DNA of 28,299 nt, taken from positions 1 to 28,299 of the IMG/VR virus record IMGVR_UViG_3300009068_000149; one strand, written 5' to 3'. Shown one piece after another: positions 3,570-23,847 of the stretch. The stretch is from a virus. The notes beneath the pieces were generated by a model. It had not been told where the DNA came from. It worked only from the letters and a program-made list of their open reading frames with translations, and did no database searches. Each line of letters opens with the position of its first letter. Positions within the stretch are counted from its first letter, which is position 1. Position numbers and translations under genes: made by a program.

Positions 3570-4640
3570 ATGTCGGATCTACTAAATAAACTTCGTAAGA
3601 ATACTACAATCAAGGACTCAGATATCCTAGCAGACTCTAAGTTCTTTAATGCCAAGGACATGGTTGCAACCACTGTTCCTGCCATTAATATTGCCCTTAG
3701 CGGTAAGATCAACGGCGGTTTTGTACCAGGTCTGACTATCTGGGCAGGTCCATCAAAGCACTTCAAGACATCGTTCAGTCTTCTGATGGCCAAGGCATAT
3801 ATGGATAAGTATCCAGATGCAGTTATGCTCTTCTATGACTCAGAGTTCGGTACGCCTCAGGCATACTTCGACTCGTTCGGCATCGATACCGCTCGCGTCC
3901 TGCATACACCGATCACTGACGTTGAGCAACTCAAGTTCGACATTATGCATCAGTTCGAGGAGATCAAGCGTGGTGACCATGTCATTGTAGTGATCGATTC
4001 GGTCGGTAACCTTGCATCTAAGAAGGAAGTTGAGGATGCACTGAAGCAGAACTCGGCTGCTGATATGACACGTGCAAAGCAACTCAAGAGTCTGTTCCGT
4101 ATGGTCACACCACACCTCAACCTTAAAGACATTCCTATGATTGTGGTTAACCACACCTATCAGACTCAGGAAATGTACTCAAAGGCTGTTGTATCAGGTG
4201 GCACCGGTATCTATTACTCGGCTGACAATATCTTCATCATTGGTCGTCAACAAGAGAAGGACGGCAAGGATGTGACTGGTTATAACTTCATCATCAATGT
4301 TGAGAAGTCACGTTATGTGAAGGAAAAGAGCAAGATTCCTGTCGAAGTATCGTGGGACAAGGGCATTAGTAAATGGTCTGGTCTGATGGACATGGCCCTA
4401 GAGTCTGGTCATGTGATCAAGCCAAAGGTTGGCTGGTTCCAGAAGGTTGACATGACCACTGGTGAGATCTTCGACAAGAACTGGCGTATGGTTGATACAT
4501 ATACTTCAGAGTTTTGGTTGCCGATCCTGATGTGCCCTAAGTTCAATGAGTACATCGAGAAGAAGTATGGCGTATCTGCAGGTGCCATTATGCAGAGCGA
4601 GGATGTTGTTGAAGATCTGGTACTAGACGAGGACGATTGA
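3570..4640 (+). CDS. uvsX: UvsX recombinase (RecA-like)
   Basis: T4-type RecA-fold recombinase, 356 residues, promoting strand exchange in recombination-dependent replication and repair. Walker A is GPSKHFKTS (60-68), the form typical of UvsX; the catalytic glutamate is Glu92 in YDSEFGTP; Walker B is VIVVIDS (138-144, Asp143). HTYQTQEMY and VSGGTG carry the DNA-binding loop region, and the C-terminus ends in an acidic tail. The start has a very strong AAGGAGG site and its own promoter. The stop TGA overlaps the helicase ATG by one base, linking recombinase and helicase expression. Length and motif set match the family; no oddities seen. Confidence 0.97.
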   Translation: MSDLLNKLRKNTTIKDSDILADSKFFNAKDMVATTVPAINIALSGKINGGFVPGLTIWAGPSKHFKTSFSLLMAKAYMDKYPDAVMLFYDSEFGTPQAYFDSFGIDTARVLHTPITDVEQLKFDIMHQFEEIKRGDHVIVVIDSVGNLASKKEVEDALKQNSAADMTRAKQLKSLFRMVTPHLNLKDIPMIVVNHTYQTQEMYSKAVVSGGTGIYYSADNIFIIGRQQEKDGKDVTGYNFIINVEKSRYVKEKSKIPVEVSWDKGISKWSGLMDMALESGHVIKPKVGWFQKVDMTTGEIFDKNWRMVDTYTSEFWLPILMCPKFNEYIEKKYGVSAGAIMQSEDVVEDLVLDEDD

Positions 4641-6052
4641 TGAAAATTGAAAACGTTATCTTTGGAAATCTTGTTAATAATGAGGAGTATGCTCGTAAGG
4701 TAATTCCATTCTTGAAGTCTGACTATTTCACTGATAATGTTGATCGTACCATCTTCGAACTAGTCGAGTCGTATGTTGCCAAGTACAATACTTTTCCCTC
4801 GAAGGAGGCATTGAGTATTGACCTTGGCAACAAGGTTGGTTTATCTGATGATCAGTTCAAGAGTGCCGAAGGTATCATCTCTGAACTGGCCAAGAGTGAT
4901 GATCGTGACATCACCTGGTTAATCGACTCCACTGAGAAGTTCTGTAAGGACAAGGCTCTTTACAATGCTCTCATGGCGTCGATCAAGCTGGTCGATGACA
5001 ACCAACGTAAGGATGGTATCTCTGTCGGTTCTATCCCTCAGATACTGACTGATGCATTGGCTGTGACATTCGACCAGAACATCGGCCATGACTTCCTTGA
5101 CGACTCTGACTCACGTTATGAGTTCTACCACCGTACTGAGGTGAAGATCCCGTTTGATCTGGACTTCTTTAACAAGATTACGAAGGGTGGTCTACCACGC
5201 AAGACACTCAATATTGCTCTGGCAGGTACAGGTGTGGGTAAGTCGTTGTTCATGTGTCACTGCGCGGCAGGGAATCTAATGGCAGGTCTTAACGTCCTGT
5301 ACATCACCATGGAAATGGCTGAAGAGAAGATTGCCGAACGTATCGATACCAACCTGCTCGGTATGACAACTGATGATCTTCGTGATCTTCCTAAGACAAC
5401 CTATGATACACTTATGGGCCGTGTCAAGAAGCGTGCCAAGGGTAAGTTGATCGTCAAGGAATATCCGACCGCATGTGCTGGTTCGGCTAACTTCCGCCAC
5501 CTGATCAACGAGCTAAAGATCAAGAAGAACTTTGTTCCTGACATCATCTACATCGACTACCTGAACATCTGCACTTCATCACGTATCAAGGCAGGTTCTA
5601 ATGTTAACTCGTACACGATGATCAAGGCAATTGCTGAGGAACTTCGTGGTCTGGCTGTTGAGTGTAACGTTCCTATCGTATCAGCTACTCAGACTACTCG
5701 TACTGGTTACTCGTCGTCTGATGTTGGTCTTGAGGATACGTCTGAGTCATTTGGTCTACCGGCAACTGCTGACTTCATGTTTGCACTAATCTCTAGTGAC
5801 GAACTGAAGCAACTTGGTCAGATCATGGTCAAGCAGCTTAAGAACCGTTATGGCGATCCTGAAATGCATAAGCGGTTCGTCATAGGTGTAGACTACTCTA
5901 AGATGAAGTTGTACAACACCGAGGAGTCTGCTCAGGAAGATCTAGTAGACGATACACCTATCTTCGACAAGTCTACTGCTGGCCAACGTTATGAGAATGA
6001 TTACAAGCCTGCAACCAAGTTTGACAAGAATAAATTTGCGGGGTTCAAATGA
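4640..6052 (+). CDS. 41: Replicative DNA helicase (DnaB family, T4 gp41-like)
   Basis: DnaB-type hexameric 5'-3' helicase, 470 residues, close to T4 gp41. The N-terminal helical domain covers about 1-150. The RecA-like motor domain has Walker A AGTGVGKS (195-202, Lys201), the H1a-type stretch YITMEMAEEKIAER (221-234), Walker B DIIYIDYLN (Asp306), the H3 stretch VSATQTTR (348-355) and a downstream KNRYGD / IGVDYSKMKLYN segment. It should work with the gp61-type primase at 25364. I chose the ATG at 4640, which overlaps the uvsX stop by one base (TGATG), over a TTG three bases earlier. Confidence 0.96.
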   Translation: MKIENVIFGNLVNNEEYARKVIPFLKSDYFTDNVDRTIFELVESYVAKYNTFPSKEALSIDLGNKVGLSDDQFKSAEGIISELAKSDDRDITWLIDSTEKFCKDKALYNALMASIKLVDDNQRKDGISVGSIPQILTDALAVTFDQNIGHDFLDDSDSRYEFYHRTEVKIPFDLDFFNKITKGGLPRKTLNIALAGTGVGKSLFMCHCAAGNLMAGLNVLYITMEMAEEKIAERIDTNLLGMTTDDLRDLPKTTYDTLMGRVKKRAKGKLIVKEYPTACAGSANFRHLINELKIKKNFVPDIIYIDYLNICTSSRIKAGSNVNSYTMIKAIAEELRGLAVECNVPIVSATQTTRTGYSSSDVGLEDTSESFGLPATADFMFALISSDELKQLGQIMVKQLKNRYGDPEMHKRFVIGVDYSKMKLYNTEESAQEDLVDDTPIFDKSTAGQRYENDYKPATKFDKNKFAGFK

Positions 6053-9833: not shown

Positions 9834-10363
9834 ACATCTTCTATCTTCATGAAGATCCGCGGCAGTGTGCACAGTGGATGGTAGACAAGCATGTCGTCAA
9901 GATGATCCTTGAGACTGCCCAACTACTATCCACGGCACATCGTCTACTCGACGGAACCGAATCCATAGATACGTCGTCTGGACGTAAGAAAAGGGTATAT
10001 ACACTACATGATGAACGCGATACTATTTTCTATAGTGCTACTCATATCAATCACCCAAGTGCTGTTTGGGCCAGATCGTCGGTGGAAAATTATAACTGGC
10101 TGGTCGATCATCTCTTTGCTCTCAGCGATGAATATACTTATCGTTATGGCAAGTACCACATGACCATGGATAAGATGGGATTGATGATCCAGTCTCCGCC
10201 GCTTAATCTCAAGGAGTGGGACTGGACGCCGATGCCATCTTGCATGGATGAACAATACAAGATCGGTGATGATCCTATTGCCAACTACCGTAACTACTAC
10301 AAGTACGGTAAGGCTTCCATGCACTCATGGAAGAAACGTTCAGCTCCAGAGTGGATCAACTAA
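9830..10363 (+). CDS. Conserved phage protein, Pyr_excise-like (177 aa)
   Basis: A 177-residue protein starting with GTG in a GTGA overlap. The opening MNIFYLHEDPRQCAQWMVDKHVVKMILETAQLL resembles the N-terminus of the Pyr_excise (PF03013, pyrimidine-dimer glycosylase-like) family, including the DKHVVKM helix, and INHPSAVWARSSVENYNWLVDHL matches a conserved marine T4-like phage protein as I remember it. If a true glycosylase, it would repair UV-damaged phage DNA; the assignment to a DNA repair activity is not proven by these motifs. It is the last gene of its unit, followed at once by a strong terminator. Confidence 0.8.
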   Translation: MNIFYLHEDPRQCAQWMVDKHVVKMILETAQLLSTAHRLLDGTESIDTSSGRKKRVYTLHDERDTIFYSATHINHPSAVWARSSVENYNWLVDHLFALSDEYTYRYGKYHMTMDKMGLMIQSPPLNLKEWDWTPMPSCMDEQYKIGDDPIANYRNYYKYGKASMHSWKKRSAPEWIN

Positions 10364-10385
10364 ACCTCCTTCGGGAGGTTTTTTT
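10362..10385 (+). terminator. Intrinsic terminator
   Basis: AAACCTCC (10362-10369), the stable loop TTCG, then GGAGGTTT (10374-10381), continuing into a seven-T run (10379-10385). It begins two bases from the end of the preceding stop codon and separates the early small-gene unit from the late promoter that follows. Confidence 0.93.
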
Positions 10386-10391
10386 GTATCT

Positions 10392-10399
10392 TATAAATA
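10392..10399 (+). promoter_or_regulatory. T4-like late promoter TATAAATA
   Basis: An exact TATAAATA box seven bases after a terminator and about 16 bases before the ATG of the nuclease-like gene. The expected start near 10406 lies after an in-frame ATG at 10401, which supports the downstream start at 10416. Confidence 0.75.
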
Positions 10400-10415
10400 G
10401 ATGAAAGGAGTTTAT

Positions 10416-11138
10416 ATGAGTGCTGCATCAGACAAATATGAAAGAGATGTTGCCAAGAACATCGATCAAATCCCAGGTGTCAAGGCAGAGAGGCCATCGG
10501 TTGGTACAGACTATCCTGACGTAAAGCTAACTTATAATAATAAGAAGACGTGGCTTGAGGTCAAGATGAGTCATACCGACAACCTGTCAAATCCTCGTAT
10601 GTTCTATAAGAATGGTAAATGGCAGACAACATATAAAACTCCAGCTGCAGCAGCTGCTGTCGAGATCCTGAACAAGTCGCCTATGACCAAAAAGTTTATA
10701 GAAGAGATCTCTAAGTTCTCTGGTATTCCGATGAAGGATCTTAAGATACCATCATCTAAGACTGGACTGAAAGAACCAGGTGCTGTTCCTCTGCATATCA
10801 TGAAGGCATACTTTTCAAAGCCAGGTATCAATCGTTACATCGCCAACAAAGAGAACCAGGATCTTGGCAAGGTCGTAACTGACCACTATACGATTGGCAA
10901 GACTGAACCTGCATACTATATGCAGGCAGGTGACGACTTCTATAAGATCTCTAATAAGGACCCATTCGGTTTCGGATCAAGTATTCCCCTACTAAAAGGC
11001 ATGGGCGACTTCAAGGTTCGTATCGGTACGCGTACAGAATTCTATGAGGTTCAGGCTGAGATTAAAATCAAGAAGATGCCAAACAGCGACTACTCGTTGA
11101 AACCGGGATCGAAAAAAAAGAACCCATTTCTAAAATAA
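10416..11138 (+). CDS. PD-(D/E)XK nuclease-like protein (240 aa)
   Basis: A basic 240-residue protein. I start it at 10416: AAAGGAG is at 10404-10410, while an in-frame ATG at 10401 sits next to the late promoter and would be lost from its transcript. Residues 25-50 read RPSVGTDYPDVKL then KKTWLEVKM, giving Asp35 and Glu48-x-Lys50, the typical spacing of a PD-(D/E)XK core; an upstream glutamate (Glu10) could complete the site. The C-terminal half is Lys-rich and ends KKKNPFLK. It could be a DNA endonuclease acting on host DNA or in packaging. Late promoter control suggests a role in virion production or packaging. Confidence 0.65.
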   Translation: MSAASDKYERDVAKNIDQIPGVKAERPSVGTDYPDVKLTYNNKKTWLEVKMSHTDNLSNPRMFYKNGKWQTTYKTPAAAAAVEILNKSPMTKKFIEEISKFSGIPMKDLKIPSSKTGLKEPGAVPLHIMKAYFSKPGINRYIANKENQDLGKVVTDHYTIGKTEPAYYMQAGDDFYKISNKDPFGFGSSIPLLKGMGDFKVRIGTRTEFYEVQAEIKIKKMPNSDYSLKPGSKKKNPFLK

Positions 11139-11142
11139 ACTA

Positions 11143-11171
11143 TGTACATTATTTCGAAAACGTTGTAGGGT
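11143..11171 (+). promoter_or_regulatory. TGTACA-N17-TAGGGT promoter, leader nearly absent
   Basis: TGTACA at 11143-11148, a 17-base spacer and TAGGGT at 11166-11171. Its spacer resembles the element at 6605 (TATnTCGAAAA). The predicted start falls at about 11177, the A of the ATG, so a transcript from here would be leaderless; the AGGG that could act as ribosome site lies within the -10. Confidence 0.5.
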
Positions 11172-11176
11172 AAACT

Positions 11177-11782
11177 ATGATAAAGAAAAGATTCAGAGAG
11201 TTTGTAGGTTCAGGTACGCTCACGATATTCGATATCGATGAGACATTGTTCCATACGTATGCCAAGGTCGCTGTCATGAAGGACGGCAAGGTTGTTCGGA
11301 TGCTGGATAACCAACAATTCAATACCTACAAGCGTAAAGCCGGTGAGACCTACAACTATGGTGAGTTTGCGAATGCTGAGGTATTTCGTAAGTCGTCTAA
11401 ACCTATAGATCGTATGGTTGCCAAGGCCAAGGCGATCTTTGCCAACTCTCGTAAGAATCCACACAGTCGTGTTATCATCTGTACTGCTCGTGCAGACTTT
11501 GACAACAAGGATATCTTCCTTCAGACGTTCCGTGACTATGGTCTACCTATAGATCAGATCCACGTCGAACGCGCTGGTAACCTGAAGATCGACTCATCGG
11601 CCGAAGCCAAGAAGATCATCTTCCGGAAATATATAAATACAAAGAACTATGTAAAACTTAGGTTGTTTGATGATGCACCTAGCAATCTTCATGCATTCCT
11701 TTCTTTACAGAAAGAGTACCCGAACATCAAGTTCGAGGCTTATTTTGTAAACCCTGATGGATCGATAAAGACTGTACGATGA
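11177..11782 (+). CDS. HAD-superfamily phosphatase (201 aa)
   Basis: A HAD-fold hydrolase. Motif I is TIFDIDETLF with Asp19 (nucleophile) and Asp21 (acid/base); motif II is VIICTAR with Thr103; a motif III lysine (about 145-146) lies in SSAEAKKII; motif IV is LRLFDDAPSN with Asp165 and Asp166. The layout resembles the 3'-phosphatase domain of T4 polynucleotide kinase and related phage HAD proteins, without a P-loop kinase domain. A likely role is removal of phosphates from nucleic-acid ends or nucleotides, which would fit the ligase-like gene two genes downstream. It begins MIKKRFREFVGSG, similar to leaders on neighbouring proteins. The stop overlaps the next ATG. Confidence 0.85.
   Translation: MIKKRFREFVGSGTLTIFDIDETLFHTYAKVAVMKDGKVVRMLDNQQFNTYKRKAGETYNYGEFANAEVFRKSSKPIDRMVAKAKAIFANSRKNPHSRVIICTARADFDNKDIFLQTFRDYGLPIDQIHVERAGNLKIDSSAEAKKIIFRKYINTKNYVKLRLFDDAPSNLHAFLSLQKEYPNIKFEAYFVNPDGSIKTVR
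11632..11639 (+). promoter_or_regulatory. Possible late promoter box TATAAATA inside a gene
   Basis: An exact TATAAATA within the HAD coding sequence, 140 bases before the 11779 gene. It could drive the 11779-15180 genes late in infection. Being inside a coding region, it may also be chance. Confidence 0.35.
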
Positions 11783-12765
11783 AATCTTTTAAGAACTACA
11801 TCATTGAATCTCGTATGACAACTCGTGAAGAGATTGTTGCTGCTATTGCTGGCCATAAGAAAGCTGGTGAGATCCTTAATCCTATCTATCAGGATCTTGG
11901 TAGTCAAGCCCGTCGTGTCTTTGGTAAGGAAACCGATGCAGGCCGTGAAGCTATTCTTGCGTCTATGCGTAAAGGCGAACGCGATGCAACGCTTGTTGAT
12001 ATCTATTATTCATGGCCACATGACTCGTTTGTATCCCTCGGTAAGATTGATAAACTTGCATCCAAGCTAAAGCCAGAGTTCAAGGCGATTGCTGCAATTA
12101 CACATGATCTTGTTAAGAAGTGGAAGCCTGTCGCTGACGATCTTAAAGCTCTTAAGGGTATGGTTGTCAAGGTTACACAGAAGCGCGCAGAAGCTAAGGC
12201 TGTTGCTGCCTCTGATATGAGCCGTAAGTTTGCTGACTCGTCATCACTTATCAAGATCTTCGAAAGTCATATGCAAGAATATATTGATATGGCCAAGAAG
12301 CGTTCTGAGGAGTTTGTCAAGGACAAGCTTGATATCCTGAAGAAGCATGGTATGGATCTTAATAAGGTAGCTCCTCTCCCTAATTCACGTACCATGGGTG
12401 CATCCGAGTATAAGTCGGCGCAGGCTAAGCGAGACCTGTTTCGTTCGTTTGTAAAACCAGTATCTAACGCGCATCGTGCCGGTGATCCATACATCGTCAA
12501 GGCTAATCAGGTCATGATTGATCGGTATGTTGAACTGAATGTCAAGGGTGCCGAAGATGCCTATAAGAACTTCATGGGCAAGATGATCGAGAAGATCGGC
12601 AAACCAGTCGTAGATGCTAAGATGACTGGCAACATCTGGACCAATGCTACTCTTCATGTTACCACTGATGACGGTGAAGAGCAGGTTTGGAGTACTCAGA
12701 TGATCATAAACTTCTCTAAGTATCAAACTATGTTTAACCAATTCCCTTCTCGTAGGAAGAAATAA
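11779..12765 (+). CDS. Hypothetical protein with capsid-targeting-like leader (328 aa)
   Basis: A basic, helical, 328-residue protein coupled by ATGA overlap to the HAD gene. It begins MKSFKNYIIES: the first ten residues resemble T4 internal-protein capsid-targeting leaders (MKTYQEFIAE/A in IPIII), with I-x-E before a small residue fitting the gp21 prohead-protease site. The rest includes long Lys/Ala-rich helices (KLKPEFKAIAAITHDLVKKWKPVADDLKALKG) and a C-terminal beta part (IWTNATLHVTTDDGEEQVWSTQMI). No catalytic motif is recognised. Context suggests a head-internal or virion-associated protein; this is inference. Confidence 0.75.
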   Translation: MKSFKNYIIESRMTTREEIVAAIAGHKKAGEILNPIYQDLGSQARRVFGKETDAGREAILASMRKGERDATLVDIYYSWPHDSFVSLGKIDKLASKLKPEFKAIAAITHDLVKKWKPVADDLKALKGMVVKVTQKRAEAKAVAASDMSRKFADSSSLIKIFESHMQEYIDMAKKRSEEFVKDKLDILKKHGMDLNKVAPLPNSRTMGASEYKSAQAKRDLFRSFVKPVSNAHRAGDPYIVKANQVMIDRYVELNVKGAEDAYKNFMGKMIEKIGKPVVDAKMTGNIWTNATLHVTTDDGEEQVWSTQMIINFSKYQTMFNQFPSRRKK

Positions 12766-13934
12766 TGACCTCATTTAAAGATTTCCTTTCAGAAGATGCA
12801 AGCGAAGAAAAGCTTACACACCTTGAACATGCCGAAGATCATGTCATTCATGGTGGCGCTGCTGGATTCTCGCATGCATACCACAACCTGAAGGATGTGC
12901 ATGACAAGCTCACAGGCAAGGAGAATGCAACCAAGGTAACCATGAAGTATGACGGTTCGCCGTCGGTGATCTTCGGTACAAATCCTGAGAATGGCAAGTT
13001 CTTCGTTGCTACTAAGTCTGCTTTCAATAAGAATCCTAAGATCAACTATACACCTGAAGATATCGAACGCAACCATGGGCATGCCCCTGGTCTGGTCGAG
13101 AAGCTTAAGGCTGCATTAGAACACCTGCCTAAGACGACTCCTAAGAAGGGTGTCTACCAGGGTGATATCATGCACACTAGAGGCGATGTCCAGACACATG
13201 GTAATAAAGTTAAGTTCACACCGAATACGATCACATATGCTGCTGATAAGAACTCTCCTCATGGTCAGGCTGCACTAAACTCTCAGATCGGTGTTGCCGT
13301 TCATACTGCATACAAGGGCAAGACCCTACAGGATATGAAGGCACAGTATGCACCTGAACTTAATTCTTTTAAGAAGAATAAGGATGTGCATCTGATCTCT
13401 ACCGAGCACCCGCTTGACCAACTGGACTATAGTCCTAGAGACCAACAACAGTTTGCTAAACACATGAAAGCAGCTGCCATGTTGCATAGAGCTACTGGCG
13501 AAGATGCTTTTGAAGCAGTCCAGAAGCATCAAGTTCCTTTGAAAACATATATCAATAGCACCATTCGTCATGGCACGAATCCATCTCTTAGTGGATATAT
13601 TGAACATCTTACAAATGCTCATCAGAAGAAGATTAATGCTGTAAAGACTGAGAAGGCCAAGGCACAGAAGTCTGCACTGGCTCAGATAGATCTAGATCAT
13701 GTACAGAAGAATCGTGCAGGTTTCAACCGTGTCCTTCAGATGCATCGTCGTCTCCAGAAAGCCAAAGATATCCTGACTCGTACACTGTCTTCGAACTCAG
13801 AGTTTGAACACTCTATTCGTGGCAAGAAAGCAAAGCCAGAGGGATTTGTTGCCGTAAGACATAACCGTCCTACGAAGCTCGTTGATCGTCGTGAGTTCTC
13901 TGCTGCCAACTTTAACAGGGATAGCTCACTATGA
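12765..13934 (+). CDS. KxDG covalent nucleotidyltransferase, ligase-like (DUF6267-type, 389 aa)
   Basis: A 389-residue protein that I recall as DUF6267 in T4-like phages. It has the motifs of the DNA/RNA ligase and capping-enzyme superfamily: motif I MKYDGSPSVIFG with Lys61 as putative nucleotidylated lysine, a motif III-like VYQGDIM (130-136), motif IV PEGFVAV (Glu359) and motif V TKLVDR (Lys371). Together these suggest ATP- or GTP-dependent sealing or adenylylation; the substrate is unknown. The N-terminus MTSFKDFLSED again resembles a capsid-targeting leader with an L-x-E site. It is linked by one-base overlap upstream and ATGA downstream to a second nucleotidyltransferase gene. Confidence 0.8.
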   Translation: MTSFKDFLSEDASEEKLTHLEHAEDHVIHGGAAGFSHAYHNLKDVHDKLTGKENATKVTMKYDGSPSVIFGTNPENGKFFVATKSAFNKNPKINYTPEDIERNHGHAPGLVEKLKAALEHLPKTTPKKGVYQGDIMHTRGDVQTHGNKVKFTPNTITYAADKNSPHGQAALNSQIGVAVHTAYKGKTLQDMKAQYAPELNSFKKNKDVHLISTEHPLDQLDYSPRDQQQFAKHMKAAAMLHRATGEDAFEAVQKHQVPLKTYINSTIRHGTNPSLSGYIEHLTNAHQKKINAVKTEKAKAQKSALAQIDLDHVQKNRAGFNRVLQMHRRLQKAKDILTRTLSSNSEFEHSIRGKKAKPEGFVAVRHNRPTKLVDRREFSAANFNRDSSL

Positions 13935-14545
13935 AATCAATCCATATAACTCAAGGCAGATTTAATCCGGTCCACGCTGGTCATGCTATGGTCGTAAAGC
14001 ATGTAATGGATGCTGCCAAGAAAGAAGGCGCAGATCATAAGATCTTAACTACAGGATCTCATGATGCCAAGAAGAATCCTCTGACGCCCGAGCAGAAGGT
14101 TAAGCATCTCAAGCGGGCTGTCAAGGGATCTAATGTAGAAGCAATGGGCAGAGATGCACCTACACTACTTCATCAGATGTCAAAATTGCATGCGGCGGGT
14201 TATACTCACGTGACTATGCATGTCGGTTCAGACCGTGTTCAGCAGTTCCATGATCTTCTACACCGTTATAATGGCCATGAAGGTGGAAAGCATGGCTATT
14301 ATAACTTCAAGAGCATCAAGGTCAAGTCAGTAGGTGGTGAACGCAAGGAAGGCGGAGATGGTATCGAGTCTGCATCTGGTACCGCTATGCGTAAACATGC
14401 TGCAGCCGGTGACAAGGAATCTTTCCATAAGATGGCTCCATCAGGTATGAGCAAAGCCCACAAGGATGAATTGTATCATGATGTCCGTAAAGGCATGGGT
14501 GTCAACGAATCATTCATCATAAGATTTAAGAACTGGATTAGTTAA
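13931..14545 (+). CDS. HxGH nucleotidyltransferase (204 aa)
   Basis: A 204-residue nucleotidyltransferase of the cytidylyltransferase/NMNAT superfamily: TQGRFNPVHAGHAMVV carries the HxGH signature (His15, His18), and ESASGTAMRKH carries the late S-x-S/G-T-x-x-R motif (Ser149, Thr151, Arg154). Family enzymes transfer AMP or CMP from the triphosphate to a phosphate-bearing acceptor such as NMN or phosphopantetheine; the acceptor is not clear from motifs. The C-terminus VNESFIIRFKNWIS echoes the SFK-type leader of its neighbours, but at the wrong end. Direct coupling to the ligase-like gene suggests the two act together. Confidence 0.85.
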   Translation: MKSIHITQGRFNPVHAGHAMVVKHVMDAAKKEGADHKILTTGSHDAKKNPLTPEQKVKHLKRAVKGSNVEAMGRDAPTLLHQMSKLHAAGYTHVTMHVGSDRVQQFHDLLHRYNGHEGGKHGYYNFKSIKVKSVGGERKEGGDGIESASGTAMRKHAAAGDKESFHKMAPSGMSKAHKDELYHDVRKGMGVNESFIIRFKNWIS

Positions 14546-15180
14546 TGGCTCAGTTTAATACCGGTAATAATGCATATCAAGCTGCAAATAAAACGCTCTT
14601 CGAGGTCAATCAAATTGCCACAGCAAATGGCAGTTTAGTTACCGCTACTAATCCATTTCCTGTTAGCGGAACTATTATTACATTAGAAGAAGCTGGCGCG
14701 TTGTATTCATTTAACAACCATGCAACAAACACAAATCGCGGTTGGACTATGGACGATACTATGCGCCCGATTGTTAGTTTTAGAAATGGTAGTGCCAATA
14801 CCGCAGATATAATTAAAATTGTTGAGTATGAGATTGGAAACAACAACGCAAATGCAAGTACTATCATATACGAATGGTATGAAGGCGATATAGCTATTAC
14901 AGGAGCTACTATACCTGCTTGGACTACGTTCGGTGTCCATAGCCAATATCGTGTATATCAAGACAAAAATTCTTCTAATCAAGGAAATGCATTTACTCCA
15001 AATGGTGCTATAATGCGACATAGCGGTATTATAATTGGTAAAAATTCTTCTGCGGATGAAGGTCCTGCAAATATGCATGGTGGAGAAACTCCAAATATGA
15101 TGACTTTGTGTATGAAAAGAGTAGACAGCAGTACCAAACTAGATGTGTGGTTTGCCTTTACTATCAAAGAGCTTATATAA
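14545..15180 (+). CDS. Hypothetical beta-rich protein, AT-rich gene (211 aa)
   Basis: A 211-residue protein rich in Asn, Thr, Ser and Ile (NTGNNAYQAANKTLFEV, EIGNNNANASTIIYEWYEG) with predicted strands and few charged residues, typical of extracellular or virion decoration proteins. No motif is recognised. It overlaps the previous stop by one base (TAATG), so it may be in the same transcript. By hand count its middle is about 34 percent G+C, lower than flanking genes, and its codons end more in A/T. This suggests recent acquisition. Nothing indicates tail-fibre repeats or enzyme sites. Confidence 0.75.
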   Translation: MAQFNTGNNAYQAANKTLFEVNQIATANGSLVTATNPFPVSGTIITLEEAGALYSFNNHATNTNRGWTMDDTMRPIVSFRNGSANTADIIKIVEYEIGNNNANASTIIYEWYEGDIAITGATIPAWTTFGVHSQYRVYQDKNSSNQGNAFTPNGAIMRHSGIIIGKNSSADEGPANMHGGETPNMMTLCMKRVDSSTKLDVWFAFTIKELI

Positions 15181-15284: not shown

Positions 15285-17402
15285 ATGGAAGACGACAAAA
15301 AAGTAAAAGACGAGACTGTACCGGATAAAGCACCTGAGAAAAACCTCAAGAAGCCTTCTGGGAAATCTGCAACTGGCAAGCCATTAGATGGTATCGACAT
15401 CAATCCTCAGCTAAATGACGTGAGTACCGATGGCAACCAGTTAAAAATACGCAAAGAGGATTCCGTAGACCTAACTGCTCCCGTAATTCAAGAGCGTAAA
15501 GCCTTGACATTACCACAGCGTCAGAAGCGTGCACGCGTCATGCGTACGCATGAACGCAAGATGGAAAGAGCACGTGAGGTTGCCAAAAACAAATTAGCAG
15601 GATCGTCACAGCTTGAGAAGAGAGCACTCTCTCATGCTCGTGCAATCGTCAAGAAGAGATTCGCAGCTCGCAAGGGTACACCTTACGCAGAGTTGACAAC
15701 TACCGAGAAGATCCAGGTAGATACTGCAGTAGCAAAGAAGACCAAGCTGATCCAAAAGATTGCTAAGCGTCTACTTCCTCGTATCCGCAAGGCAGAGTAC
15801 GAACGTCTTAAGTCGTTCCGTAATGGTGCACCATTACAAGATCTATCGACACAAAATCCTAAGGCACAGGGCATCATGCCTAAGGTAACTGAGGAGATGT
15901 CACAGCTGTTCAATACACTTGATGCGGCTGATACTAACTCACTGATCAGCATCATTGAAGATACCATCAACCAGTTTAATCGCGATAATAATCCACTAGG
16001 CAATCAACTCAAAAGAATGCTTGACGCAGTTCTTCCTGAGGATGTAGTCACCGAGTCGTTGGTTAAGAAATCAGAGAAGACCGGTATTGCATTCTCGACA
16101 CTGAAAGAAGTGTTCGATCGTGGTGAATACTCTTGGGATGAATCCAATCGGATGACACAGGAGCAATTCGCGTTTGCTCGCGTCAACTCATATATCGCCA
16201 AGGGTAAGGCATGGCACATGGATGCCGACCTTCGTGAAGAGAAAGTTGTGAATGTCAAGTTGGATGAGTCTTTCAATGACTTCATGGAAAACTATAACTA
16301 TCATGTAGGACTAAGTAGTTCTACCGCCAAGAAGCGCGAAACCCACTGGAAAAAGATGCAGAAGTATTCTGATAAGGATTCACGTGCATATCAAGATGCA
16401 CCTGGTGATAAGGAAGCCCGCAAGAAGGGCATGCCGCAATCAGAGTATACAAAGAAGTACCATGCAATGTATGGTGAGGACGTTGAGGCACTTATTGCCG
16501 AAGCAGCCGGCGGTCTTGCTGACAAAGCCAAGAAGTCTGGTGTTTCACTTTCTGTGTTGAAAAAAGTATATGCTCGTGGTGTTGCTGCATGGAATACTGG
16601 CCATAGACCTGGCACTACACCACAACAGTGGGGCATGGCTCGTGTAAACTCATATATCTCTAAAGGTAAGGGTACATACGGCGGTGCAGATAAAGATCTT
16701 CATGAAGCAGGTCGTGGACTGTGGGCAAATATTCAGGCAAAGCGTGAAAGAATCAAACGTGGATCCGGTGAGCGTATGCGCAAGGTTGGTGAGAAAGGTG
16801 CACCAACACCTGCTGGTATCAAATCTGCTCAAGAGTCTGTAGCAACTAACAAGCGTAAGAAGATCGAACTTGTAGATCGTCCTCCTGCTGACCAGGCAGT
16901 CAAGGCACGCCAACAAGAGATTCAAAAGAAGATCATCGATGAAGCTAAGGCCAAACCATATGTAAAACCTTTTCATAATGAAAATGGCGATCATGTTGGT
17001 TGGAAGTCATCAAACGGTCATCATGTAAAGTTCTGGAGACTTGCCGACTCTGCCAAGAAGAAGGCATATCAGCATGCCGGCATCTCAGAAGAAGTTACTT
17101 CTGATTTAAATGAGAGCTTTAATATGGCCTGGACATCTGGTATCGGTGTGACTCTGTCGGCTGCTGACTGTGGCATCAAGATCAAGGGCGGTTTCTCTCT
17201 GCATCCGGATGTTATTGAACAGATGGCAGAGATCGAAGAAGATGTTGTAGCTGCTGATAAGAAGCCAGTCTATATGCCACCACGTCGTCATAAAGACGGA
17301 TCATTCGGTAAGGCATCAACCTCAATGCGCAGAACTGGTAAGAAGATCATTGACGTCAAAGAACCAGAAGACGTAGATTCGGATGAACACGATGGCAAAT
17401 GA
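15285..17402 (+). CDS. Large modular virion-associated protein (705 aa)
   Basis: A 705-residue, very basic, multi-module protein under a late promoter. Residues 74-176 form a Lys/Arg-rich helical domain (LPQRQKRARVMRTHERK to KRLLPRIRKAEYERLKS) of a type I recall in T4-like head-associated proteins. Two copies of a DUF5824-like module follow: 257-318 (SLVKKSEKTGIAFSTLKEV to ARVNSYIAKGK) and 409-472 (GLADKAKKSGVSLSVLKKV to ARVNSYISKGK). Between them, 349-398 resembles DUF5872 (HWKKMQKYSD, DAPGDKEARKKGM, YTKKYHAMYGE). These modules also occur in injected phage polyvalent proteins; DUF names are from memory. An internal DESFNDFMENY at 327-337 and NESFNMAW later echo the SF leader motif. Likely packaged in the head; role unproven. 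Confidence 0.8.
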   Translation: MEDDKKVKDETVPDKAPEKNLKKPSGKSATGKPLDGIDINPQLNDVSTDGNQLKIRKEDSVDLTAPVIQERKALTLPQRQKRARVMRTHERKMERAREVAKNKLAGSSQLEKRALSHARAIVKKRFAARKGTPYAELTTTEKIQVDTAVAKKTKLIQKIAKRLLPRIRKAEYERLKSFRNGAPLQDLSTQNPKAQGIMPKVTEEMSQLFNTLDAADTNSLISIIEDTINQFNRDNNPLGNQLKRMLDAVLPEDVVTESLVKKSEKTGIAFSTLKEVFDRGEYSWDESNRMTQEQFAFARVNSYIAKGKAWHMDADLREEKVVNVKLDESFNDFMENYNYHVGLSSSTAKKRETHWKKMQKYSDKDSRAYQDAPGDKEARKKGMPQSEYTKKYHAMYGEDVEALIAEAAGGLADKAKKSGVSLSVLKKVYARGVAAWNTGHRPGTTPQQWGMARVNSYISKGKGTYGGADKDLHEAGRGLWANIQAKRERIKRGSGERMRKVGEKGAPTPAGIKSAQESVATNKRKKIELVDRPPADQAVKARQQEIQKKIIDEAKAKPYVKPFHNENGDHVGWKSSNGHHVKFWRLADSAKKKAYQHAGISEEVTSDLNESFNMAWTSGIGVTLSAADCGIKIKGGFSLHPDVIEQMAEIEEDVVAADKKPVYMPPRRHKDGSFGKASTSMRRTGKKIIDVKEPEDVDSDEHDGK

Positions 17403-17697
17403 TATTATCGGATTCAAGGAATTCATCATGGAACGTGGTGCAGACTCTAAGGGTCATTTTATTGCTACCGAAAAAGGTGCAGGAATGACTGAAAAGGGTG
17501 TCAAGGCATTTCGTGCAAAGAATCCTGGGTCAAAGCTTCAGACTGCCGTAACCGGTAAGGTCAAGCCTGGATCCAAGGATGCCGGAAGACGTAAGTCTTT
17601 CTGTGCCCGTATGTCAGGTATGCCAGGTCCTATGAAGGATGAGAAGGGTAGACCAACTCGTAAAGCAATGTCATTAAGAAGATGGAAGTGCAACTAA
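17392..17697 (+). CDS. Small basic DUF6321-like protein (101 aa)
   Basis: A 101-residue basic protein. Two in-frame ATGs exist, at 17383 and 17392; I prefer 17392 (GGA about eight bases upstream), both overlapping the previous gene. The N-terminus has IIGFKEFIMERG, again a capsid-targeting-like leader with I-x-E. The body has GMTEKGVKAFRAKNPGSKL and DAGRRKSFCARMSGMPGPMKDEKGRPTRKAM, then RRWKCN, which match, from memory, the DUF6321 phage family. Role unknown; the many Lys/Arg suggest nucleic-acid contact, perhaps packaged with DNA. Its stop overlaps the Dps-like gene by one base. Confidence 0.8.
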   Translation: MANDIIGFKEFIMERGADSKGHFIATEKGAGMTEKGVKAFRAKNPGSKLQTAVTGKVKPGSKDAGRRKSFCARMSGMPGPMKDEKGRPTRKAMSLRRWKCN

Positions 17698-23113: not shown

Positions 23114-23629
23114 ATGTTCGGCATGATCCCTCTACCATACAAGTTAATGGCCGCTGGTGCACTCCTAATTGGGGTGTTTATCTTTGGCTATATGAAGGGA
23201 TCAGCATATGCCGAGGCTGAACTGGCAAGATTCTCTGCCGAGAAGAGTGCACAGGTTGCCGAACTTGAAAAGAAAAATACAGAGATAAGTAACAAAGTAG
23301 TTACTGAGTTTGTTGATAGAACCAATACGATTAGGGAAAAGGAATATGTATACCGTGACATCGCTACAAAAGCTGTTCCTGCTCAGCACAATATGTCTAA
23401 TGGCTGGGTGTACGCGCACGACGCTAGTGCCACATCCGGTGATGCCGACCCCGCCAGAGCTTCTGATGCGAGCCCCTCAGGAATTAAAGACAATGAAGCC
23501 CTCCTTACCATCTTCAACAACTACTCTAGATGCCTCCAAAACAGCCAACAACTGATTGGTCTACAACAATGGATTGTAGAAAATAAAGCTGCTGTTGATG
23601 CTATGGCTGAAGAAAAGAAAAAGAAATGA
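23114..23629 (+). CDS. Inner-membrane spanin (i-spanin, Rz-like)
   Basis: A 171-residue protein with an uncleaved N-terminal transmembrane anchor (KLMAAGALLIGVFIFGYM, about 10-27), then a periplasmic coiled coil (AEAELARFSAEKSAQVAELEKKNTEISNKV, 32-62) and a Ser/Ala/Asp-rich stretch. This is the i-spanin design: it spans the periplasm and, with an outer-membrane lipoprotein, fuses the two membranes in the final lysis step. A complete o-spanin gene is embedded in its +1 frame (23346-23555), the Rz/Rz1 arrangement, which strongly supports the call. Holin candidates follow; the endolysin is at 1-737. Confidence 0.88.
   Translation: MFGMIPLPYKLMAAGALLIGVFIFGYMKGSAYAEAELARFSAEKSAQVAELEKKNTEISNKVVTEFVDRTNTIREKEYVYRDIATKAVPAQHNMSNGWVYAHDASATSGDADPARASDASPSGIKDNEALLTIFNNYSRCLQNSQQLIGLQQWIVENKAAVDAMAEEKKKK
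23346..23555 (+). CDS. Outer-membrane spanin lipoprotein (o-spanin, Rz1-like), embedded gene
   Basis: A 69-residue frame lying entirely within the i-spanin gene in the +1 frame. MYTVTSLQKLFLLSTICLMAGC is a lipoprotein signal peptide with lipobox L18-M-A-G-C22. The mature 48 residues are Pro-rich (VPHPVMPTPPELL, then KPSLPS), as in Rz1-type o-spanins. The ATG at 23346 has TAGGGA eight bases upstream; an upstream in-frame ATG at 23310 would add 12 residues before the signal. It should be lipidated, sent to the outer membrane and paired with the i-spanin. Confidence 0.88.
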   Translation: MYTVTSLQKLFLLSTICLMAGCTRTTLVPHPVMPTPPELLMRAPQELKTMKPSLPSSTTTLDASKTANN

Positions 23630-23847
23630 AGAAGTTTAAAGACTTTGAAGCAACTTCAGACACCGAAGAGGTTCCGTCAAAGGATAATCTAGTCAACATC
23701 ATTGCCAACTCTTTAAATCGTGCTGGTGGCAAAGATGACAAGACTATGCTGATGTTAATTGCTGCACTTGGGCTGTTGAATCTGTCCAAGGAAGGCCTTC
23801 CTCTCAGTGTTGCCAGAAGATTGGCTACTACACAATCAAAGAAGTAA
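23626..23847 (+). CDS. Small protein with SFK-type leader (73 aa)
   Basis: A 73-residue protein coupled by ATGA overlap to the i-spanin gene. It starts MKKFKDFEATSDTEE, similar to capsid-targeting-like leaders elsewhere in the window, though the I/L-x-E site is not exact. The rest is a helix pair (NLVNIIANSLNRAGGKDD, TMLMLIAALGLLNLSKEGLP) with moderate hydrophobicity, not a convincing transmembrane segment. Function unknown. Confidence 0.7.
   Translation: MKKFKDFEATSDTEEVPSKDNLVNIIANSLNRAGGKDDKTMLMLIAALGLLNLSKEGLPLSVARRLATTQSKK

Follow-up and report, generated by a model that had tools for sequence, protein, structure and literature searches.

A predicted RNA-ligase-fold enzyme with a putative T4-type capsid-targeting peptide in a translationally coupled phage locus

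The internal proteins IPI, IPII, IPIII and Alt of phage T4 are directed into the head by a capsid-targeting sequence, cleaved by the protease gp21 and ejected. This tag takes proteins to the prohead core, residues 4 and 7 serving in targeting and residues 8 and 10 in processing (PMC9026906). T4 also has a tRNA-repair pair, Pnkp and Rnl1, the second being one of the RNA ligases together with T4 Rnl2, the Naegleria enzyme and fungal Trl1. In cyanophages the T4-GC190 proteins, annotated as 'cytidylyltransferase/NMNAT', are reported as virion proteins of S-SM1, S-SZBM1, S-SCSM1 and S-CREM2.

The locus described here lies in a 28,299-nucleotide viral stretch (IMG/VR record IMGVR_UViG_3300009068_000149), referred to below as the window, and all features are on the plus strand. 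Four open reading frames at 11177-11782, 11779-12765, 12765-13934 and 13931-14545 overlap successively by 4, 1 and 4 nucleotides (ATGA, TAATG and ATGA), and the translational coupling proposed in a sequence-only reading of this DNA is confirmed. A fifth member, encoding 211 residues at 14545..15180, is coupled to these through a further TAATG; over its first 40 residues the product weakly resembles a family of virion structural proteins (E 0.0015). Upstream, a 245-residue protein (10401..11138) that may also be cargo resembles, as judged by eye from a PD...ExK pattern, the PD-(D/E)xK nucleases, and family-profile searches with it gave no significant match. PADLOC returned no match for five proteins of the locus. 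As with T4 Pnkp and Rnl1, a HAD phosphatase and a ligase fold are found together, here in one operon.

Fold and catalytic residues of DUF6267

The 389-residue product of 12765..13934 belongs to Pfam DUF6267 (PF19782; E 3.6e-104, 349.5 bits against a curated cut-off of 27), in keeping with the statement of the sequence-only reading that this ligase-like family is described only as a DUF, and no mention of it was found in the literature searched. It is present in 471 phage records, and its carriers among the T4-like phages that infect common aquatic bacteria run into the hundreds. In 84,980 'cellular' genomes there are 38 loci, almost all on metagenome- or single-cell-derived contigs, and we read these as phage contigs.

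The AlphaFold2 model of the protein (pLDDT 93.1, pTM 0.89) has the nucleotidyltransferase fold of the RNA ligases, and the relationship first proposed from motifs is therefore borne out by the predicted structure. All 50 matches listed by VIA-align are RNA or DNA ligases, the best being the Naegleria RNA ligase 6vt1 (Z 10.6, 182 residues, 3.4 A), followed by T4 Rnl2 (Z 9.0), T4 Rnl1 (Z 8.3), Trl1 and DNA ligases. Foldseek E-values for the same model are weak, the best being 0.28. A DUF6267 profile searched against PDB chains gave no meaningful match to any solved ligase, and a comparison with T4 Rnl2, underpowered by the single sequence on the Rnl2 side, gave none either. The link to the ligases is one of fold and motifs only; sequence profiles give none.

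Lys61 (codon 12945..12947), the predicted AMP-accepting lysine of motif I (K-x-D-G) and the residue singled out in the sequence-only reading, is unchanged in 397 of 397 full-length aligned homologues, in which the motif appears as KWDGAP, KYDGSP, KFDGAP and similar variants. Across 91 diverse homologues, down to ~30% identity, K61-x-D63-G64-x-P66, Q132, D134, E359-G-x-V362 and K371 are invariant. Motif IV (E359-G-x-V) and motif V (K371-x-V-D-R), encoded at 13839..13877, lie on beta strands 360-365 and 368-372 of the model, and E359, G360, V362, K371 and R375 do not vary in the homologue alignment. Motifs I, IV and V stand as first described; the III-like motif reads QGD rather than the usual hydrophobic-GE, with the invariant D134 on strand 130-138. 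DUF6267 also differs from the RNA ligases in its low identity to them (~11-14% over 168-207 aligned residues), a ~130-residue helical insertion ahead of motif IV, an N-terminal HLEHxED segment and the lack of a separate C-terminal domain. DUF6267 is best read as an adenylyltransferase. It probably seals nucleic-acid ends, though with motif V so close to its C-terminus this activity is not assured.

Neighbouring enzymes

The 201-residue protein encoded at 11177..11782 matches phrog_415, 'polynucleotide kinase' (E 2e-8), and its assignment as a HAD-fold phosphatase of the DxDxT type is upheld by the invariance of D19-x-D21-x-T23, T103, K145 and D165/D166 in 25 homologues. Some of these homologues match Acid_phosphat_B (8e-6) and HAD_SAK_1 (0.006), and a profile search against the PDB gave no match. 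The 3'-phosphatase motifs are shared with T4 Pnkp, to which the protein appears from its sequence to be only distantly similar. The next gene (11779..12765) encodes a basic helical protein of 328 residues (phrog_4687, E 4.7e-32), the C-terminal half of which is a domain common to Ackermannviridae phages and found in 223 phage records, mostly from phages of Salmonella, Escherichia and Dickeya. Its AlphaFold2 model has a pLDDT of 80, and a Foldseek search with this model, of which the pTM is only 0.48, gave no match.

The 204-residue product of 13931..14545 scores 28.8 bits against PF01467 (cut-off 21) and matches phrog_3041/395. The HxGH and SxTxxR motifs on which it had been called a nucleotidyltransferase hold up across the family, where G9-R10-x-N12-P13...G17-H18 and S149...R154 are invariant, and the cyanophage T4-GC190 proteins belong to this same HxGH family. 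On its sequence the enzyme is filed only as a nucleotidyltransferase of the CTP_transf_like superfamily. Taken as a whole, the overlapping frames, the invariant motifs and the DUF6267 match go well past what chance would give.

Conservation of the locus was assessed where DUF6267 is flanked on each side by 2.5 kb or more. At 148 of 159 such loci the nucleotidyltransferase gene is no more than 5 kb from DUF6267, and in S-SZBM1 the T4-GC190 gene adjoins it. The phosphatase is found at this distance in 24 of 36 loci of the window clade and 8 of 42 of the DLP6 clade. For the basic protein the count is only 4 of 36 in the window clade. What is conserved is the pair of DUF6267 and the nucleotidyltransferase, and not the group of four. 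The three enzyme assignments of the sequence-only reading are thus supported, a constant four-gene group is not. One PHROG profile, phrog_455, covers both DUF6267 and the nucleotidyltransferase domain, which points to fused members.

This near-constant pairing and shared profile would also suit a role in cofactor metabolism. The HxGH enzyme would then serve as an NMN adenylyltransferase and DUF6267, as a relative of the ligases, would AMPylate a cofactor or a protein, the two acting after injection to restore NAD+ or to modify a host protein. NMNAT models are the nearest to the HxGH family, and the cyanophage proteins called NMNAT have been found in virions. The score of the window protein against the NMNAT NCBIfam model is, however, 26.7 bits, far below the cut-off of 127, no evidence points to a protein or to NMN as the substrate of DUF6267, and a phosphatase and a nuclease-like protein nearby hint at nucleic acid or nucleotides instead. 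We regard this role as unlikely.

Predicted capsid-targeting peptides and virion proteins

DUF6267 begins with the peptide MTSFKDFLSE (12765..12794), followed by D, in exact register with the MKTYQEFIAE of T4 IPII and IPIII, which in IPIII is followed by A; cleavage is predicted after E10. The basic protein begins with MKSFKNYIIE (11779..11808), followed by S, in the IPIII register and with cleavage likewise predicted after E10. This second peptide is present in 18 of 18 homologues down to 37% identity, with M1, F4 and E10 invariant. Both have aromatic residues at positions 4 and 7, leucine or isoleucine at 8 and glutamate at 10, as in T4, and in the AlphaFold2 models residues 1-12 of DUF6267 and 1-10 of the basic protein are disordered. 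The sequence-only reading overlooked these peptides, and with them the place and time at which the enzymes would act differ from those it envisaged.

A strict form of the motif occurs at 38 of 41 distinct DUF6267 N-termini in the window clade, as against 2 of 205 distant genes (p ~1e-38), and at 46 of 60 in the DLP6 clade, as against 3 of 144 (p ~2e-29). In Stenotrophomonas phage DLP6 the protein starts with MMKFTQFLAE, followed by S. Cyanophage DUF6267 proteins have no tag. Their first residues, M[SA]KNTHLEHLED, fall at the predicted cleavage point and correspond to the SKNTHMEHLED that directly follows the glutamate in tagged relatives. A start-codon artefact was considered and rejected, as cyanophage frames extended upstream to the start codon nearest the preceding stop are still untagged and shuffled N-termini would give 0.4 tags against the 86 observed. 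A fusion of the basic protein to DUF6267 at one locus (L058), considered as a functional fusion, is better read as the outcome of a deletion that removed the basic-protein C-terminus in frame and kept both tags. A gene for a gp21-family head protease is present in 8 of 8 related genomes tested, the window itself being a 28 kb fragment. The evidence from sequence and model for the fold of DUF6267 and for its tag is strong.

Similar peptides occur elsewhere in the locus. The phosphatase carries a degenerate segment, RFREFV (11189..11206), with the aromatic-x-x-aromatic-aliphatic pattern and no cleavage glutamate, and three of its DLP6-clade homologues have a full peptide, for example MMLSFKSFITE followed by QTRGKGLTIFDIDET. 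DLP6-clade homologues of the 10401..11138 protein have an N-terminal capsid-targeting-like peptide at 7 of 10 loci near DUF6267. A DUF6321 protein (17383..17697; PF19846, E 1.7e-20) has the capsid-targeting-like N-terminal sequence IIGFKEFIME, with the motif at residues 11-17; in the window clade the +4 gene carries this motif in 11 of 26 cases.

The nucleotidyltransferase of the window clade has no N-terminal tag; unlike the T4-GC190 proteins, which have a capsid-targeting-like N-terminus in the three genomes read, it has a C-terminal FKNWI (14525..14539), and the tag sits on DUF6267. Its relatives end in SFKAFLNEQRSSI or RFKSWLMLESN, and a virion-detected S-SCSM1 protein ends in TFKEFLEYIE. 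Published proteomics places the nucleotidyltransferases of S-SZBM1, S-CREM2 and S-SCSM1 in virions, and each of them begins with the tag, whereas the untagged DUF6267 proteins of S-SZBM1 and S-CREM2 are absent from the virion protein lists. Virion mass spectrometry of phages with tagged DUF6267 was not found, and the published data place only tagged nucleotidyltransferases in virions. In S-CREM2, virion proteins are encoded by 4 of the 5 genes tagged at their annotated start and by 48 of the other 214; in S-SZBM1 the figure is 1 of 4 (p 0.45), not significant alone. The tag in S-CREM2 marks a SAM hydrolase, an APH-like kinase and a cytidylyltransferase, all 'virion-associated' in the published list, for which the available portion of the proteome description names no packaging signal; its authors caution there that virion detections may be carry-over. 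Virion proteins 89 and 90 of S-SCSM1, beside the nucleotidyltransferase, were checked as possible DUF6267 proteins and are not.

The sequence-only reading had suggested a divergent set for healing and sealing ends. Made late and acting in the cytosol like T4 Pnkp and Rnl1, such a set would mend tRNAs that anticodon nucleases of the host have cleaved, and the peptide would have no packaging role. The RNA-ligase fold and the phosphatase agree with this, the latter through its relation to the 'polynucleotide kinase' family and, weakly, to the RNA-repair family HAD_SAK_1, as do the AAA_33/zeta-type (Zeta-toxin) kinases near DUF6267 in 14 of 22 loci of the HTVC clade. Against it, kinase families gave no match among the window proteins scanned, which were part of its open reading frames, so that compared with T4 the set appears incomplete here; the basic protein and the phosphatase are often missing from DUF6267 loci, and the tag keeps its T4 register both in the basic protein and in DUF6267 of the window and DLP6 clades. 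We consider a cytosolic set of this kind, with strict equivalents of Pnkp and Rnl1 as in T4, improbable. That the tagged proteins are scaffold components, whose catalytic residues persist solely to support folding or to bind nucleotides, is very improbable: the T4 tag does target the prohead core and the 14545..15180 product is weakly similar to a structural family, but K61, D63, E359 and K371 are fully invariant over hundreds of sequences and cyanophage DUF6267 has lost the tag and retained all catalytic motifs, both of which point to an enzyme.

A putative head-packaged cargo

Taken together, the ligase fold, the catalytic residues and the T4 packaging tag indicate that DUF6267 is probably an enzyme injected with the viral DNA, and we favour, with some confidence, the reading of the locus as head-packaged enzyme cargo ejected with the genome. 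Unlike the T4 internal proteins, the cargo would here be an unrelated RNA-ligase-fold enzyme and a basic protein, and we infer the packaging from sequence. DUF6267 and the basic protein would be made with a ten-residue propeptide that attaches to the prohead core and is then removed by a gp21-type head protease cutting behind E10. The mature enzymes would remain in the head and arrive in the following host at time zero, where Lys61 would accept AMP from ATP (or NAD+) and transfer it, the likeliest acceptor being the 5'-phosphate end of a nucleic acid, which would then be sealed; the phosphatase may trim ends or nucleotides, and the HxGH enzyme may make a dinucleotide or nucleotide cofactor.

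More tentatively, and with rather more doubt than conviction, T4-like phages of marine and freshwater bacteria may possess, downstream of their gp41 helicase gene, an interchangeable locus devoted to cargo, from which tagged enzymes reversing host damage are packed to act as the DNA enters. An RNA-ligase-fold sealer, HAD phosphatase, kinase, HD-domain hydrolase or nucleotidyltransferase would on gaining a capsid-targeting peptide act before any phage gene is expressed. If a ligase-type enzyme is indeed delivered in the head, repair or counter-defence would precede transcription, which is impossible for enzymes made after infection, and the capsid-targeting peptide would allow the injected cargo of marine phages to be recognised simply from sequence.

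The four-gene set and its locus

By gene content the window (IMG/VR record, 28,299 bases) is T4-like, with a T4-type DNA polymerase, UvsX and a DnaB-type helicase encoded upstream of the four-gene set. The four translationally coupled genes of the sequence-only reading are all present, overlapping by 4, 1 and 4 bases, and a fifth gene, starting at 14545, is coupled to them. Family profiles identify the products as a HAD phosphatase (11177-11782), a basic protein (phrog_4687; 11779-12765), Pfam DUF6267 (PF19782; 12765-13934) and an HxGH nucleotidyltransferase (NTase; 13931-14545). Conservation of the four as a set was not supported. Of 159 well-flanked loci, 148 have the NTase within 5 kb of DUF6267; the HAD protein is that close in 24/36 (window clade) and 8/42 (DLP6 clade), and the basic protein in 4/36 (window clade). 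The gene directly upstream of DUF6267 is variable and often carries a predicted capsid-targeting peptide (29/56, DLP6 clade), its tagged products including a zeta-toxin/AAA_33-type kinase and an HD_4-domain protein. The stable core of the locus is DUF6267 plus the NTase, and given this constancy beside variable, often tagged neighbours, the four genes of the window are a local form of a broader arrangement. At one locus (L293:5447-5995) the gene immediately preceding DUF6267 encodes the tagged HD_4 protein; as its family includes SpoT-like hydrolases, it could hydrolyse alarmones after injection.

Predicted capsid-targeting peptides

DUF6267 begins MTSFKDFLSE/D and the basic protein MKSFKNYIIE/S (slash, predicted cleavage point); T4 IPII and IPIII begin MKTYQEFIAE/A. 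In T4 the first ten residues are enough for packaging, with residues 4 and 7 serving targeting and 8 and 10 cleavage by gp21 (PMC9026906). Both window peptides match T4 at all four positions, in register, and are disordered in the predicted models. The strict motif, [FYW]xx[FYW][LIVM]xE, occurs in only 3 of 44 putative window gene products, each time near the N-terminus. Among distinct DUF6267 N-termini it is found in 38/41 of the window clade (more distant genes of the same loci, 2/205) and 46/60 of the DLP6 clade (3/144), the latter rising to 60/63 with Leu permitted at the first position. Shuffling the first 25 residues of 175 sequences gave 0.4 expected motifs versus 86 observed, though such counts are of distinct sequences rather than independent evolutionary events, so that p values for enrichment overstate independence. 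The peptide is present in all 18 basic-protein homologues; F4 and E10 never change, although adjoining residues do. For both DUF6267 and the basic protein, sequence and models strongly support a packaging tag of the T4 type. DLP6-clade HAD homologues are tagged too (MMLSFKSFITE/QTRGKGLTIFDIDET), and in the window clade the HAD retains a degenerate RFREFV that lacks the Glu needed for cleavage. The HTVC008M clade mostly has a shortened version, LLxE/DKNT. A gp21-family protease gene was present in 8/8 related genomes tested.

Homologues of the upstream 245-residue protein (10401-11138), which by eye resembles PD-(D/E)xK nucleases, have a capsid-targeting-like peptide at 7/10 DLP6-clade loci. 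A 705-residue protein (15285-17402) matches DUF5824 and has internal SFNDFM/NESFN motifs resembling the targeting core; this region is also similar to long phage cytidyltransferases (phrog_3041), in their C-terminal portion. The DUF6321 protein (17383-17697) has the targeting-like N-terminus IIGFKEFIME/R and genes at the same relative place have the motif in 11/26 (window clade), which makes it a possible further cargo of the head; a ferritin-like protein (PF00210; 17682-18131) is encoded directly 3'. The start of a 73-residue protein (23626-23847), MKKFKDFEATSD, closely resembles that of T4 IPI (MKTFKEFTST), and a divergent DUF6267 relative (L438:4016-5161; E 1e-56) has its own tag, MKTFLDYLTE/A.

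Tags and virion proteins in cyanophages

The peptide is found in 0/163 cyanophage DUF6267 proteins, which mostly start M[SA]KNTHLEHLED, exactly at the would-be cut site of tagged relatives (E/SKNTHMEHLED). The NTase gene that follows DUF6267 in the S-SZBM1 clade is tagged in 37/37 distinct sequences. Virion proteins reported for S-SZBM1, S-CREM2 and S-SCSM1 (PMC9146016, PMC10665884, PMC9602691) include NTases, starting MRFRQFIIE/A, MKNFSSFLTE/A and MKSFLQFLKE/A respectively, while the untagged DUF6267 of S-SZBM1 (_141) and S-CREM2 (gp87) is absent from the published lists of detected proteins. Virion proteomics thus agrees with the tag distribution, the NTase being tagged and detected and DUF6267 untagged and unlisted. 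T4-GC190, of the same NTase family, was detected in S-SM1 virions (PMC3037559). In S-CREM2, 4/5 genes with the peptide at the annotated start (those for the SAM hydrolase, APH-like kinase, NTase and gp13) encode virion proteins, versus 48/214 others (p 0.012); in S-SZBM1 alone 1/4 tagged proteins was detected, which is not significant (p 0.45). Virion-reported S-CREM2 products (OR473000) start MKDFDSFLEE (SAM hydrolase, 3837-5081), MKDLHSFLTE (78 residues, 10310-10546) and MKRFDAFLTE (APH-like kinase, 10579-12846). The virion-detected 69-residue S-SCSM1 gp93 (L486:41627-41836) ends TFKEFLEYIE, which suggests that the motif can sit at either terminus; in the window NTase it is likewise C-terminal.

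Fold and likely chemistry of DUF6267

The homologue set comprised 397 full-length sequences, drawn from IMG/VR and phage records and falling into five clades (window, DLP6, HTVC008M, P-HM2 and S-SZBM1 types). Among 91 sequences below 80% identity K61, D63, G64, P66, K84, Q132, D134, E359, G360, V362, K371 and R375 are invariant, Lys61, the proposed adenylylation site, thus being kept in 91/91. The high-confidence AlphaFold2 model (pLDDT 93.1, pTM 0.89) gave weak Foldseek scores, about half of the top matches being ligases or capping enzymes. With VIA-align the best match was Naegleria RNA ligase (Z 10.6, 182 residues, 3.4 A), followed by T4 Rnl2 (Z 9.0), T4 Rnl1 (8.3), Trl1 and DNA ligases; among the matches listed 50/50 were RNA or DNA ligases, bearing out the suspected ligase-type fold in the predicted structure. 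Strands 57-61, 130-138, 360-365 and 368-372 bear the conserved motifs in the expected order, and a helical insertion of ~130 residues (about 215-345) precedes motif IV. An RNA-ligase fold with conserved catalytic residues is strongly supported by model and alignment. Sequence-profile comparison reached no ligase, which may explain why the family remains a DUF, and the literature searched yielded no mention of it.

AMP transfer to nucleic-acid 5' ends would be the likeliest chemistry, given that RNA ligases are the nearest folds and that genes for HAD phosphatases, and in relatives for kinases, lie nearby. Chemistry of the NAD type, or directed at proteins, is also possible; the NTase scored below cut-off against an NMNAT model and is classified only as a CTP_transf_like nucleotidyltransferase. 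The tagged proteins would be packaged, cleaved and ejected, resembling T4 internal proteins in their proposed mode of delivery, and DUF6267 resembles RNA ligases in its predicted fold. A literature search for cyanophages and capsid-targeting sequences together returned one T4 review only. New here is the proposed pairing of a ligase-type enzyme with delivery by injection from the head.
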